The translations under genes were made by a program, and so were the position numbers. Source: Rhodobiaceae bacterium (GTDB lineage Bacteria > Pseudomonadota > Alphaproteobacteria > Rhizobiales > NORP267). Taken from it: a stretch of 64,000 nucleotides of DNA. Shown in pieces: positions 15,010 through 53,876 of this stretch. Position 1 is the first letter of the stretch. Each line of letters opens with the position of its first letter. A model generated the notes under the pieces. That model did not search any database and was not told where the DNA came from. It was given only the letters and a program-made list of their open reading frames with translations. Where the stretch lies: assembly GCA_020441905.1 (NCBI GenBank), contig JAGRLG010000076.1, forward strand, positions 1-64,000, written 5' to 3'.

Positions 15010-15501
15010 GTGAGCAGGGTTGCCCAAGCTGTCAATTCGCTTCTGCTGAAGGAGTTCGTTTCGGCGTTCTTCCTGTCGATGCGCTATTTCTTCGCGCCGA
15101 AACCCACCATCAACTACCCCTTCGAGAAAGGCCCGCTTTCCCCGCGTTTTCGCGGCGAGCACGCGCTGCGGCGCTATCCCAATGGCGAAGAGCGCTGCAT
15201 TGCCTGCAAGCTGTGCGAGGCGATCTGCCCGGCGCAGGCCATTACCATCGAGGCCGGTCCGCGGCGCAATGACGGCACGCGGCGCACGACGCGCTACGAC
15301 ATCGACATGGTGAAGTGCATCTATTGCGGCTTCTGCCAGGAGGCGTGTCCGGTGGAGGCCATCGTCGAGGGGCCGAATTTCGAATACGCGGTGGAGACCC
15401 GCGAAGAGCTTTATTACGACAAGGAGCGCCTGCTCAATAACGGCGACCGGTGGGAGCGCGAACTGGCGCAGAACATCGCGCTCGATGCGCCGTACCGATG
15501 A
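15010..15501 (+). CDS. nuoI: NADH-quinone oxidoreductase subunit I
   Basis: Ferredoxin-like subunit (TYKY) binding clusters N6a and N6b, 163 residues. Two CxxCxxCxxxCP motifs are present: [12 protein letters not shown] and [12 protein letters not shown]. The GTG at 15010 is preferred over TTG 15004 because AAGGAG (14998-15003) is then 6 nt upstream. The protein begins [16 protein letters not shown], as in other alphaproteobacterial NuoI. Confidence 0.97.

Positions 15502-27688: not shown

Positions 27689-27692
<4 letters not shown>
26427..27692 (+). CDS. lolC: Lipoprotein-releasing ABC transporter permease LolC/LolE
   Basis: Inner-membrane permease that extracts outer-membrane lipoproteins for transfer to LolA. 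421 residues: first transmembrane segment in [30 protein letters not shown], a large periplasmic domain (about residues 50-270), and three C-terminal segments with FtsX-type features ([19 protein letters not shown]). ATG 26427 is preferred over the upstream in-frame start at 26382 because GAGCGGA precedes it and [21 protein letters not shown] is typical. Its TGA overlaps lolD. A single LolC/E gene suggests a homodimeric permease. Confidence 0.94.
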
Positions 27693-28453
<761 letters not shown>

Positions 28454-28497: not shown

Positions 28498-28526
28498 TTG
28501 ACAAAAGAACAAAACCAGAACATTGT
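28498..28526 (+). promoter_or_regulatory. Promoter with LexA (SOS) operator upstream of the 32-codon gene
   Basis: A perfect TTGACA (28498-28503) is followed by GAAC-AAAACCA-GAAC (28507-28521), an exact alphaproteobacterial LexA box (GAAC-N7-GAAC, equal to GTTC-N7-GTTC on the other strand). The -10 at 17-bp spacing would be CATTGT (28521-28526), which is weak. The operator lies in the spacer, as in the lexA promoter of this window, so LexA binding would block RNA polymerase directly. Confidence 0.8.
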
Positions 28527-28556
28527 GTCTGCCACAGACCAAGGAGGGCAGAGACA

Positions 28557-28655
28557 ATGGCAGTTTCCATCCATGACCTGGCGGCGGCGGGCGCGTTCAT
28601 CTGTTTCAGTTTCGGTATCGTTTCGCTTTCCGGCGCATTGACCCATTTGCTCTAG
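28557..28655 (+). CDS. SOS-controlled 32-residue membrane peptide (SidA-like)
   Basis: A short gene encoding 32 residues starting MAVSIHDLAAAG and ending GALTHLL. AAGGAGG (28541-28547) 9 nt before the ATG is among the best ribosome sites in the window. Residues 8-31 are hydrophobic with small residues, one probable transmembrane helix, with a short N-terminus. It is the first gene behind a perfect LexA box. Caulobacter SidA, a 29-residue LexA-controlled inner-membrane inhibitor of cell division, is similar in size, topology and control and, as I recall, also lies beside dnaE. Homology at sequence level was not tested, so a division-inhibitor role is inference. No gene symbol is given. Confidence 0.8.
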   Translation: MAVSIHDLAAAGAFICFSFGIVSLSGALTHLL

Positions 28656-28937: not shown

Positions 28938-31900
28938 ATGATGACAGCAGTGAAAGGTGGCGGGCCCGGTTTCGTTCACTTGCGGGTGCGCTCGGCCTAT
29001 TCGCTGCTGGAAGGCGCGCTGCCGGTCAAGAAGCTGGTCGGGCTGGCAGTTGCCGACGCCATGCCGGCGATCGCCATCTGCGATAGCGGCAACCTGTTCG
29101 GGGCGCTGCAATTTGCCACCGCGGCGGCGGATGCCGGGGTTCAACCGATCATCGGCACCACGCTTGCCGTCGACATGGACGACGAGCTGGCTGCGGCGCA
29201 GGCGGGCGCGCCTGGCGGGATACGGCAGGAGCGGCCGTGCCTTGCCCTGCTGGCGCGCGATGTGACCGGCTACCGCAATCTCATGCAGCTGTCGAGCGAG
29301 GCTTATCTTGCCACCGATGGCGCCGAGCGCCCCCATGTGCCGCTGTCTTTCCTGACCCGCCACAGCGAGGGGCTGATCGCGCTTTCCGGCGGTCCGGGCG
29401 GCCCGGTCAACGAGGCTCTGCTGGGGCAGCGGGGCGATATCGCAGAGGCGCGGCTGGAGATCCTGCGCCGGGCCTTTGGCGACCGGCTCTATATCGAATT
29501 GCAGCGCCATGGCCTCGACGAGGAAAAAGTGTGCGAGCCGCTTCTGATCGATCTTGCCTATCGTCTGTCGCTGCCTCTGGTTGGCACCAACGATGCATTT
29601 TTCGCCCGCGAGGACGATTTCGAGGCCCATGACGCACTGCTCTGCATCGCTGGCGGCGCGCTGGTGTCGGAGGACAAGCGGCGGCGCTCGACCCCTGAGC
29701 ACTGGCTCAAGCCCCGCGCCGACATGGTGGCGCTGTTCGCCGACCTGCCGGAAGCGGCCGCCAACAGCGTCGAGATCGCGCGCCGTTGCCGCTACTGGCC
29801 CCGTCCGGCCAATCCGATGCTGCCCCGGTTCACCTCAAGCGCGGAGCAGGAAGCGGCGGGGAAAAACGGGGCCGCCGCCGATCCGGAGACCGAGGAACTG
29901 GTGCGCCAGGCCCATGCCGGCCTCGAGGCACGGCTCGCAGCCCACGGCGCGGCGGCGGGATATGCCGTCGATGACTATCGCAAGAGGCTTGATTTCGAGC
30001 TCGATGTCATCGCCCGCATGAAATATTCGGGCTATTTCCTCATCGTTTCCGACTTCATCAAATGGGCCAAGGGCAGGGGGATCCCGGTGGGGCCGGGGCG
30101 CGGTTCGGGCGCGGGCTCGGTGGTGGCCTGGTCGCTGACCATCACCGATCTCGACCCCATGCGCTTCGGCCTGCTGTTCGAGCGCTTTCTCAATCCGGAA
30201 CGCGTGTCGATGCCGGATTTCGACATCGATTTTTGCCAGGAGCGGCGCGACGAGGTGATCGAATATGTGCAGCAGCGCTATGGCGCCGACCAGGTGGCGC
30301 AGATCATCACCTTCGGCACGCTGCAGGCGCGCGCCGTGCTGCGCGATGTCGGCCGGGTGCTGGAACTGCGCTATGGCGAGGTCGACCAATTGGCCAAGAT
30401 GGTGCCGGCCAATCCGGCCAATCCGGTTTCCCTGGCCCAGGCCATCGACGGCGAGCCGCGCCTTCAGGAGGCGCGCCGCTCCGATCCGCGCATCGCGCAG
30501 CTATTGAGGATCTCGCTGCGCCTCGAAGGGTTGTACCGCCACGCCTCGACCCATGCCGCCGGGATTGTGATCGGCGACCGGCCGCTGCGGGAAATCGTGC
30601 CGCTCTACCGCGACCCGCGCTCGAGCATGCCGGTGACCCAGTTCTCGATGAAGTGGGCGGAGCAGGCCGGGCTGGTCAAGTTCGACTTTCTCGGCCTCAA
30701 GACGCTGACGGTCATCGACAAGACGGTCAAGCTGCTCGCGCTTCGCGGCGTTTCGCTCGATGTCGCGGAGCTGCCGCTGGACGACGCGCGGACCTATGAG
30801 CTGCTGGCCAGCGGCGAGACCGCCGGCGTGTTCCAAGTTGAAAGTTCGGGCATGCGCGATGCGCTGAAGCGCATGAAGCCGGACCGCCTGGAGGATATCA
30901 TCGCCCTGGTCGCCCTCTACCGCCCGGGCCCGATGGACAATATCCCGACCTATTGCAACCGCAAGCAGGGCTCGGAGAAGCCCGACTATCTCCACCCCAT
31001 GCTGCAACCGATCCTGGAGGAGACTTTCGGGGTCATCATCTACCAGGAACAGGTGATGCAGATCGCGCAGGTGATGTCCGGCTATTCGCTGGGCGAAGCG
31101 GACCTGCTGCGCCGCGCCATGGGCAAGAAGATCAAGTCGGAGATGGACAAGCAGCGATCCGGCTTCGTCGCCGGCGCCGTCAGCAATGGCATCGAACAGG
31201 CGCAGGCGGAGTATATTTTCGAGCTCATCGCCAAGTTCGCCGATTACGGCTTCAATAAGTCGCACGCCGCCGCCTATGCCCTGATCGCCTACCAGACCGC
31301 CTATCTCAAGAGCCATTATCCGGTGGAGTTTCTTACCGCGTCGATGACGCTGGATATCAACAATACCGAGAAGCTGAACGAGTTCCGCCTCGAGGCGCTG
31401 CGATTGGGCATTCGCGTCGCGCCGCCCTCGATCAATTTCTCGGGCGTCGATTTCAGGCCGGACGGCAATGCCATCCATTACGCCCTGGCGGCGGTCAAGA
31501 CCGTTGGCCGGCAGGCGGTCGAGCATATCGTGGAGGAACGCGAGCGCGGCGGCGTGTTCCGCGACCTGGCCGATTTCACCTCGCGCATCAGTCCGCGCTT
31601 CCTCAACCGGCGCGCCTTCGAGAACCTTGCCGCGGCCGGCGCTTTCGACTGCCTTGAGCCAAACCGGGCCGCCGTGGTGCTTGGCGCGGAGGCCATTCTG
31701 GGCCTTGCGGCGAGCAATGCCGAGCGGCGCGCCCGCGGGCAGAACGATCTGTTTGCCACGGACAGCGCGCCGCCGGCGCCGCGCCTGCCCACGGTGGAAC
31801 CGTGGCTGCCTTCGGAGCGGCTGAGGCGCGAGTTCGAGGCGGTGGGGTTTTTTCTTTCTGGCCACCCGCTGGACGAATATCTGCCCGCGCTCCGGGCGCG

Positions 31901-32432
31901 CCAGATCAAGACCTGGGAGGAATTCCAGCGGCTCATCGACCAGGGGCAGAGCGCGGCGCGCCTTGCCGGCACCGTGCTCTACAAGCAGGAGCGCAGCGCC
32001 AAGAGCGGCAATCGTTTTGCCTTTGTCGGGGTGTCGGATCCGAGCGGGCAATATGAGGCGGTGGTGTTTGCCGACACATTGACCGAGTGCCGGGAGCTGC
32101 TGGAGCCGGGGTCTTCGATCGTCATGCGTCTTGAAGCCGATCAGCGCGACGGCGATACCAGGCTGCGGCTGCTGTCCGCCGAGCCGCTGGATGCCAATGC
32201 CGCCGCCATGCAGCAAAGCCTGATGCGCGTCTTCATTGGCGAGGACGCCTCCCCCGAGGCGCTGAAGGGGCGCCTGCCGGAAGCCGGCACGGGCGAGGTC
32301 GCGCTGGTTGTGGCGCTGGAGGGCGGACGGCGCGAGGTCGAGATCCGCCTGCCGGGGCGCTACCGCCTGACGCCGGAAACCGCCGGGGCCTTCAAGTCGC
32401 TGCCCGGCGTCATCAGCGTCGAGGCGCGCTAG
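28938..32432 (+). CDS. dnaE: DNA polymerase III subunit alpha
   Basis: Replicative polymerase catalytic subunit, 1164 residues, normal for DnaE1. Order: N-terminal PHP domain (VHLRVRSAYSLLEGAL), polymerase core with GPGRGSGAGSVVAW and the catalytic acidic motif PDFDIDFCQERRDEV, thumb/fingers with YRPGPMDNIPTY and FNKSHAAAYALIAYQTAYLK, helix-hairpin-helix, and a C-terminal OB-fold region (RLAGTVLYKQE). The PHP metal site is degenerate: HLRVRS where an active PHP domain has HxHxS, so PHP proofreading is not expected and a separate epsilon subunit should do it. The SOS promoter lies two elements upstream; read-through is possible but partly blocked by a hairpin. Confidence 0.98.
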   Translation: MMTAVKGGGPGFVHLRVRSAYSLLEGALPVKKLVGLAVADAMPAIAICDSGNLFGALQFATAAADAGVQPIIGTTLAVDMDDELAAAQAGAPGGIRQERPCLALLARDVTGYRNLMQLSSEAYLATDGAERPHVPLSFLTRHSEGLIALSGGPGGPVNEALLGQRGDIAEARLEILRRAFGDRLYIELQRHGLDEEKVCEPLLIDLAYRLSLPLVGTNDAFFAREDDFEAHDALLCIAGGALVSEDKRRRSTPEHWLKPRADMVALFADLPEAAANSVEIARRCRYWPRPANPMLPRFTSSAEQEAAGKNGAAADPETEELVRQAHAGLEARLAAHGAAAGYAVDDYRKRLDFELDVIARMKYSGYFLIVSDFIKWAKGRGIPVGPGRGSGAGSVVAWSLTITDLDPMRFGLLFERFLNPERVSMPDFDIDFCQERRDEVIEYVQQRYGADQVAQIITFGTLQARAVLRDVGRVLELRYGEVDQLAKMVPANPANPVSLAQAIDGEPRLQEARRSDPRIAQLLRISLRLEGLYRHASTHAAGIVIGDRPLREIVPLYRDPRSSMPVTQFSMKWAEQAGLVKFDFLGLKTLTVIDKTVKLLALRGVSLDVAELPLDDARTYELLASGETAGVFQVESSGMRDALKRMKPDRLEDIIALVALYRPGPMDNIPTYCNRKQGSEKPDYLHPMLQPILEETFGVIIYQEQVMQIAQVMSGYSLGEADLLRRAMGKKIKSEMDKQRSGFVAGAVSNGIEQAQAEYIFELIAKFADYGFNKSHAAAYALIAYQTAYLKSHYPVEFLTASMTLDINNTEKLNEFRLEALRLGIRVAPPSINFSGVDFRPDGNAIHYALAAVKTVGRQAVEHIVEERERGGVFRDLADFTSRISPRFLNRRAFENLAAAGAFDCLEPNRAAVVLGAEAILGLAASNAERRARGQNDLFATDSAPPAPRLPTVEPWLPSERLRREFEAVGFFLSGHPLDEYLPALRARQIKTWEEFQRLIDQGQSAARLAGTVLYKQERSAKSGNRFAFVGVSDPSGQYEAVVFADTLTECRELLEPGSSIVMRLEADQRDGDTRLRLLSAEPLDANAAAMQQSLMRVFIGEDASPEALKGRLPEAGTGEVALVVALEGGRREVEIRLPGRYRLTPETAGAFKSLPGVISVEAR

Positions 32433-53008: not shown

Positions 53009-53722
53009 TCAATAGCGGCGGAACAGACCCACCAGCTTGCCCTGAATATCAACCCGGTCGGGGCCGAAAATGCGAGTCTCATAGGTTGGATTGGCCGCTT
53101 CGAGGGCAATCGAGGCGCCGCGCCGGCGCAGCCGCTTGAGCGTCGCTTCCTCGCGATCGACCAAAGCGACCACGATATCGCCGCTATCGGCCGAATTGGT
53201 GCGCTTGATCAGCACGGTATCGCCATCGAGAATGCCGGCCTCGATCATCGAATCTCCGCGCACCTCGAGAGCGAAATGCTCGCCGGGGGGCAGCATGTCC
53301 ACCGGCATGGAAATGGTGTGGCTCTGGGTCTGGATGGCCTCGATGGGGGTGCCGGCGGCGATGCGGCCCATGATCGGTATGGCCACGGTTTCGCGATTGT
53401 CCCCGCCGTCTTCCAGGTTCTTTTGCGCGACCCGGCCCAGGCTGCCCTCAATGACCGAGGGGGAAAATCCGCCGCGGCCGCGCGCCGCCGCAAGGCTGGG
53501 CGACATCGATTCGGGCAGCCGCAATACCTCCAGCGCGCGGGCGCGGTGGGGCAGCCGGCGGACGAAGCCGCGCTCCTCAAGAGCGGTGATGAGCCGGTGA
53601 ATGCCGGATTTGGAGCGCAGATCCAGCGCGTCCTTCATCTCCTCGAAAGAGGGCGGAACGCCGCTCTCCTTGAGACGCTCGTGAATGAACATCAACAGTT
53701 CAAGCTGTTTTCTCGTCAGCAT
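53009..53722 (-). CDS. lexA: SOS repressor LexA
   Basis: Transcriptional repressor of the SOS regulon, inactivated by RecA-stimulated self-cleavage. 237 residues. N-terminal winged helix ([21 protein letters not shown], with [17 protein letters not shown] as recognition region). The cleavage bond is Ala123-Gly124 in IAAGTP; catalytic Ser158 in GDSM and Lys196 in ATLKRL. The linker is longer than in E. coli LexA (202 residues), as usual in Alphaproteobacteria. It is autoregulated: a perfect GTTC-N7-GTTC box sits within its promoter. Confidence 0.98.
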
Positions 53723-53847: not shown

Positions 53848-53876
53848 TTTATATCTGTTCTATTTGTGTTCCGCAA
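53848..53876 (-). promoter_or_regulatory. lexA promoter with SOS operator
   Basis: On the minus strand, TTGCGG (53876-53871), a 17-bp spacer and TATAAA (53853-53848) form a good promoter. The LexA box GAAC-ACAAATA-GAAC (plus-strand GTTC at 53857-53860 and 53868-53871) fills the spacer. LexA binding would exclude polymerase, giving autoregulation. The predicted leader before lexA is about 115 nt. Confidence 0.85.

Follow-up and report, generated by a model that had tools for sequence, protein, structure and literature searches.

A hydrophobic peptide gene directly 5' of dnaE in a Rhodobiaceae bacterium is probably a divergent, LexA-controlled orthologue of Caulobacter sidA

The 64,000-nucleotide stretch of Rhodobiaceae DNA analysed here (the window) carries, directly 5' of dnaE, a gene for a 32-residue hydrophobic peptide whose position, control and linked sequence similarity argue strongly that it is a divergent orthologue of sidA. 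The Caulobacter SidA protein is a 29-residue inner-membrane protein that halts division via FtsW with FtsI and FtsN, a complex that is held inactive (PMC4211646). Regulation of the window gene by LexA is likewise strongly indicated by the sequences, and we consider LexA control and SidA orthology, taken jointly, to be very probable; that the peptide is induced in the SOS response and inhibits late division through FtsW/FtsI/FtsN is, by analogy with SidA, likely. SidA itself is already known, and the window gene is a new, diverged member that is named by none of the models searched.

The peptide gene and its surroundings

The preliminary description of this DNA had reported a TTGACA hexamer, an exact LexA box, an AAGGAGG and a 32-codon gene for a hydrophobic helix, and all of these were recovered at the same positions (Table 1). 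The translated product is a single hydrophobic helix of 32 residues, and structure prediction places the helix at residues 2-31 with a mean pLDDT of 91.8. The gene is separated from dnaE by 282 nt. A consensus scan did not call the promoter at 28498-28526; of 65 relatives, 39 have TTGAC no more than 14 nt ahead of the box. The hairpin that follows the stop codon is not conserved (13 of 72 relatives, with 6.7 expected from shuffles), and the idea of a conserved terminator separating the peptide gene from dnaE is thus unsupported.

Table 1. Features of the peptide gene region and of lexA, in window coordinates
Feature	Position	Strand	Basis
-35-like hexamer TTGACA	28498-28503	+	read from sequence
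LexA box GAACAAAACCAGAAC, exact GAACN7GAAC, inside the promoter spacer	28507-28521	+	pattern match; conserved 5' of orthologues
Weak -10-like CATTGT	28521-28526	+	17 nt after TTGACA
Ribosome-binding site AAGGAGG	28541-28547	+	sequence; 9 nt ahead of ATG
32-codon ORF, product MAVSIHDLAAAGAFICFSFGIVSLSGALTHLL, proposed sidA orthologue	28557-28655	+	orthologues in family, order and class
Terminator-like hairpin 3' of the peptide gene's stop codon	28665-28681	+	sequence scan
Upstream neighbour, ABC-transporter ATPase consistent with lolD	27689-28453		Pfam
Downstream neighbour dnaE, DNA polymerase III alpha subunit	28938-32432	+	Pfam PHP and DNA_pol3_alpha; TIGR00594
lexA, presumed repressor	53009-53722	-	Pfam LexA_DNA_bind and Peptidase_S24
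LexA box GAACACAAATAGAAC directly upstream of lexA	53857-53871	-	pattern match

Conservation of the box, the peptide and the place before dnaE

The bare GAACN7GAAC pattern is weak evidence, since it occurs three times in the window where 1.42 are expected and 52 times genome-wide against 83 for the reversed control; box enrichment alone, with counts not above chance or control, was therefore rejected as evidence. It is conservation in relatives that lifts the box in front of the peptide gene above chance. The preliminary description had made its reading depend on whether relatives conserve the peptide, and we found the peptide, the box and the dnaE position kept in the family, in the order and in Caulobacter. 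A peptide search of 61 genomes gave convincing matches in two family members, both of them small ORFs directly 5' of dnaE with an exact box ahead (GAACAAAACGAGAAC in one, GAACAAAAAGGGAAC in the other); a profile search added two more family members with the peptide, and in a fifth, whose genome is 1.4 Mb, the peptide was not found.

With dnaE as the anchor, 39 of 70 genomes of the order have an exact box on the coding strand in the 700 bp ahead of the gene, where the reversed motif gave none; among 69 genomes sampled from other families of the class, the box was present in 11 and the reversed motif in one. Downstream of most dnaE-side boxes, at a median distance of 34 nt, comes a short ORF (about 24-40 codons) that encodes one hydrophobic helix, an observation that alone is not independent because ORFs were sought near boxes. 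A profile of 35 peptides was also searched genome-wide, blind to box and dnaE, against 101 genomes of the order; it matched 49 of them, leaving about half without a match, and 43 of its 51 matches are at most 1 kb upstream of dnaE and on the dnaE strand. An exact box is found within 150 nt upstream of 58 of the 66 distinct profile-found loci, a set that includes members used to build the profile; 63 have a box when one mismatch is allowed, and the control motif was found at none. Among dnaE-upstream regions unused in the profile the scores are bimodal, with eight at 25-43 bits and the next at 6, and 299 phylum-sampled genomes gave a single match outside the class, which is weak and has no box. 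The box and peptide stand before dnaE in Hoeflea, Aurantimonas, Devosia, Cucumibacter, Alsobacter and Microvirga, and also in Rhodopseudomonas, Tardiphaga, Afipia and Methylobacterium; these genomes were sampled by a CtrA scan, a choice of query that bears only on which genomes turned up. The window is assigned to the order of these named genomes, Hyphomicrobiales/Rhizobiales, by the similarity of its peptide and neighbouring genes to theirs.

The gene had originally been described as lying between lolD and dnaE. The dnaE side of that setting is borne out, and the lolD side is not: relatives with a different left-hand neighbour retain the peptide, and we do not count linkage to lolD among the defining features. 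Copies no longer next to dnaE are informative in another way. In two genomes (G066 and G072) the peptide gene and dnaE are on different contigs and the box is retained, and the copies in G137, G247 and G264, which are on other contigs than dnaE or far from it, also keep the box; the LexA link thus outlasts the dnaE link.

Several loci show variant arrangements. At L288, L289, L292 and L295 (Rhodopseudomonas, Tardiphaga, Afipia) GAACN7GAAC is followed 3 nt on by GTTCN7GTTC, an inverted double operator. SidA-type genes off dnaE occur at L410, L412, L416, L417 and L419, several of them with two overlapping LexA boxes 11 nt apart. In G087 the dnaE-side match (C2:247836-247919) crosses a TGA stop, and another contig carries a second match (C4:407405-407485), a pair that might reflect decay of one copy after duplication.

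Sequence core and selection

The peptides align nearly without gaps around a core [RKQ][DE]-x-x-A-[LF]-x-[SA]-x-x-x-F, often with a W seven residues further on; the window peptide does not have the W that is common to many orthologues. Comparison of orthologue pairs, some of which share members, gave an overall pN/pS of about 0.19 (127 synonymous and 72 non-synonymous differences), which shows purifying selection on the protein and not merely on the reading frame.

Relation to Caulobacter SidA

The preliminary description also placed Caulobacter sidA in a dnaE neighbourhood, which is correct. The peptide found 5' of dnaE in Caulobacter species, one sequence or close variants of it, is 29 residues long and scores 72.4 bits, with a cut-off of 35, against the NCBIfam equivalog NF033228 (cell division inhibitor SidA); of 61 Caulobacter genomes, 60 gave a match. 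The SidA-like reading first proposed for the window gene gains support from this identity of the Caulobacter peptide at the same spot and from the conservation of box and position. The window peptide itself gave no match to NF033228 at its 35-bit cut-off and lies outside that model as it is drawn; no Pfam or NCBIfam family model matched it.

Against a profile built without Caulobacterales, SidA scores 29.2 bits, a value that none of 5000 shuffles reached, and the order profile and the Caulobacterales profile align in register with P 2.3e-6. When the profile leaves out the window's family, members of that family score between 11.4 and 23.8 bits against it; for the window peptide the score is 14.2 bits, which 5 of 5000 shuffles reached, a result that is good and not overwhelming. 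The top entries of the natural-helix control in this test resemble members of the family that curation had overlooked, and at least one comes from L027. Aligned directly with one SidA, the window family gives a weak alignment, though in register. The connection between the window peptide and SidA thus runs through intermediates, and it is by way of the family profile that its similarity to SidA exceeds that of shuffled or unrelated helices. The window gene also has a length of about 30 residues with a predicted single helix, a box overlapping the promoter and a place directly 5' of dnaE, all as in the SidA type.

The two genes can be compared further. They share a product of about 30 residues forming one hydrophobic helix, a GAACN7GAAC-type box just 5', a position directly before dnaE and an ungapped core. 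The window peptide differs in being 3 residues longer and in scoring below the NF033228 cut-off, its gap to dnaE is 282 nt where that of Caulobacterales is roughly 5-20 nt, and its box is exact, whereas the Caulobacter boxes sampled are often tandem with one mismatch. DidA of Caulobacter is also a small single-helix membrane inhibitor of late division at FtsW/FtsI/FtsN, but it has 71 residues and is SOS-independent and DriD-induced (PMC4211646), whereas a LexA box precedes the window gene. YneA of Bacillus and SosA of Staphylococcus are SOS-induced membrane division inhibitors, YneA also acting on FtsW; they are larger proteins of Gram-positive hosts, and a sequence relationship with the window peptide would not be expected.

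Proposed mechanism and alternative explanations

By analogy with SidA, LexA bound to its box in the promoter spacer would block transcription of the peptide gene; after DNA damage, activated RecA would promote self-cleavage of LexA and the 32-residue peptide would be made. The peptide would then insert into the inner membrane as one helix and keep FtsW/FtsI/FtsN inactive, as SidA does in Caulobacter, so that septation would wait for repair. FtsW is encoded in the window's genome. For the window peptide, the binding of LexA, the response to damage, the insertion into the membrane and the target in division are all inferred.

A small SOS-induced membrane peptide could act in another way, by depolarising the membrane and slowing growth with no specific divisome target, as TisB and DinQ of E. 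coli would suggest. Such an activity is plausible to the extent that TisB and DinQ are likewise SOS-controlled, single-helix inner-membrane peptides and that the peptides outside Caulobacterales have much diverged from SidA. However, the window gene shares its place, its regulation and linked sequence similarity with SidA, and its orthology to SidA disfavours an activity of this kind; TisB and DinQ act on membrane energetics, and we saw no sequence or positional link between them and the window peptide. The charged and aromatic positions (D/E, F, W) are moreover conserved across very different genomes, which suggests a specific protein partner, and we regard membrane depolarisation as an unlikely function.

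Proximity to dnaE raises the different idea that the ORF adjusts dnaE expression, as a leader peptide or upstream ORF, given that it precedes dnaE in most genomes, that the two are merely some 5-20 nt apart in Caulobacterales and that no conserved terminator lies between. Against this, copies remote from dnaE or carried on other contigs retain the box; the protein itself is under selection (pN/pS about 0.19), and SidA has been proven to inhibit division in trans in Caulobacter (PMC4211646). We rejected the leader because the box-peptide pair is found apart from dnaE and the protein is under selection, and judge it very improbable. It is harder still to credit a chance ORF beside a chance GAACN7GAAC match, common as the bare pattern is in this genome and plentiful as short ORFs are: protein and box are both conserved in relatives, the pN/pS is about 0.19 and profile scores exceed those of shuffles, so that the odds of coincidence seem negligible. 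SOS-induced inhibition of late division by a SidA orthologue is the function that we favour.

Implications for SOS checkpoints in Alphaproteobacteria

At L269-L273, L284 and L294, all from Caulobacterales, the gap between sidA and dnaE is only roughly 5-20 nt, and SOS induction of sidA may there carry dnaE along. We tentatively raise the possibility, itself rather doubtful, that SidA is an ancestral SOS checkpoint peptide of much of the Alphaproteobacteria, placed beside dnaE because LexA derepression may raise polymerase and brake together, as a sidA-dnaE checkpoint unit, in many lineages. In the open literature, taken without the original SidA paper (Modell 2011), we found no description of SidA outside Caulobacter, which is weak evidence of absence, and none of the succession of box, peptide and dnaE that we see across much of the order and in part of the class. 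The family is missed by current models because its members are short and diverged.

The window gene offers a candidate SOS division inhibitor for the Hyphomicrobiales/Rhizobiales, an order without one named in the literature searched. With about 70 collected sequences and a clear core motif, SidA is no longer just a gene of Caulobacter and becomes a family of the Alphaproteobacteria that can be tested, and the alignment points to residues whose mutation could reveal the way in which so short a helix, of 30 residues, blocks the FtsW complex.

Other LexA boxes in the same genome

One of the two remaining boxes in the window, at 15460, falls within a coding gene. The other is directly 5' of lexA, about 24 kb from the peptide gene, so that the window holds both the presumed repressor and another instance of its motif. 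Elsewhere in the genome boxes stand 5' of imuA, of an ssb/uvrA pair and of comM, and dnaE2 shares a contig with the boxed imuA (ssb and the Mg-chelatase-like ComM were assigned by Pfam, ImuA and UvrA by eye). Two more A-rich LexA-type boxes are found in this genome beside ORFs of unknown function, at L327 2001-2015 (G000:C11:39029) and L336 2001-2015 (G000:C81:23615), and these ORFs are candidate new SOS genes.
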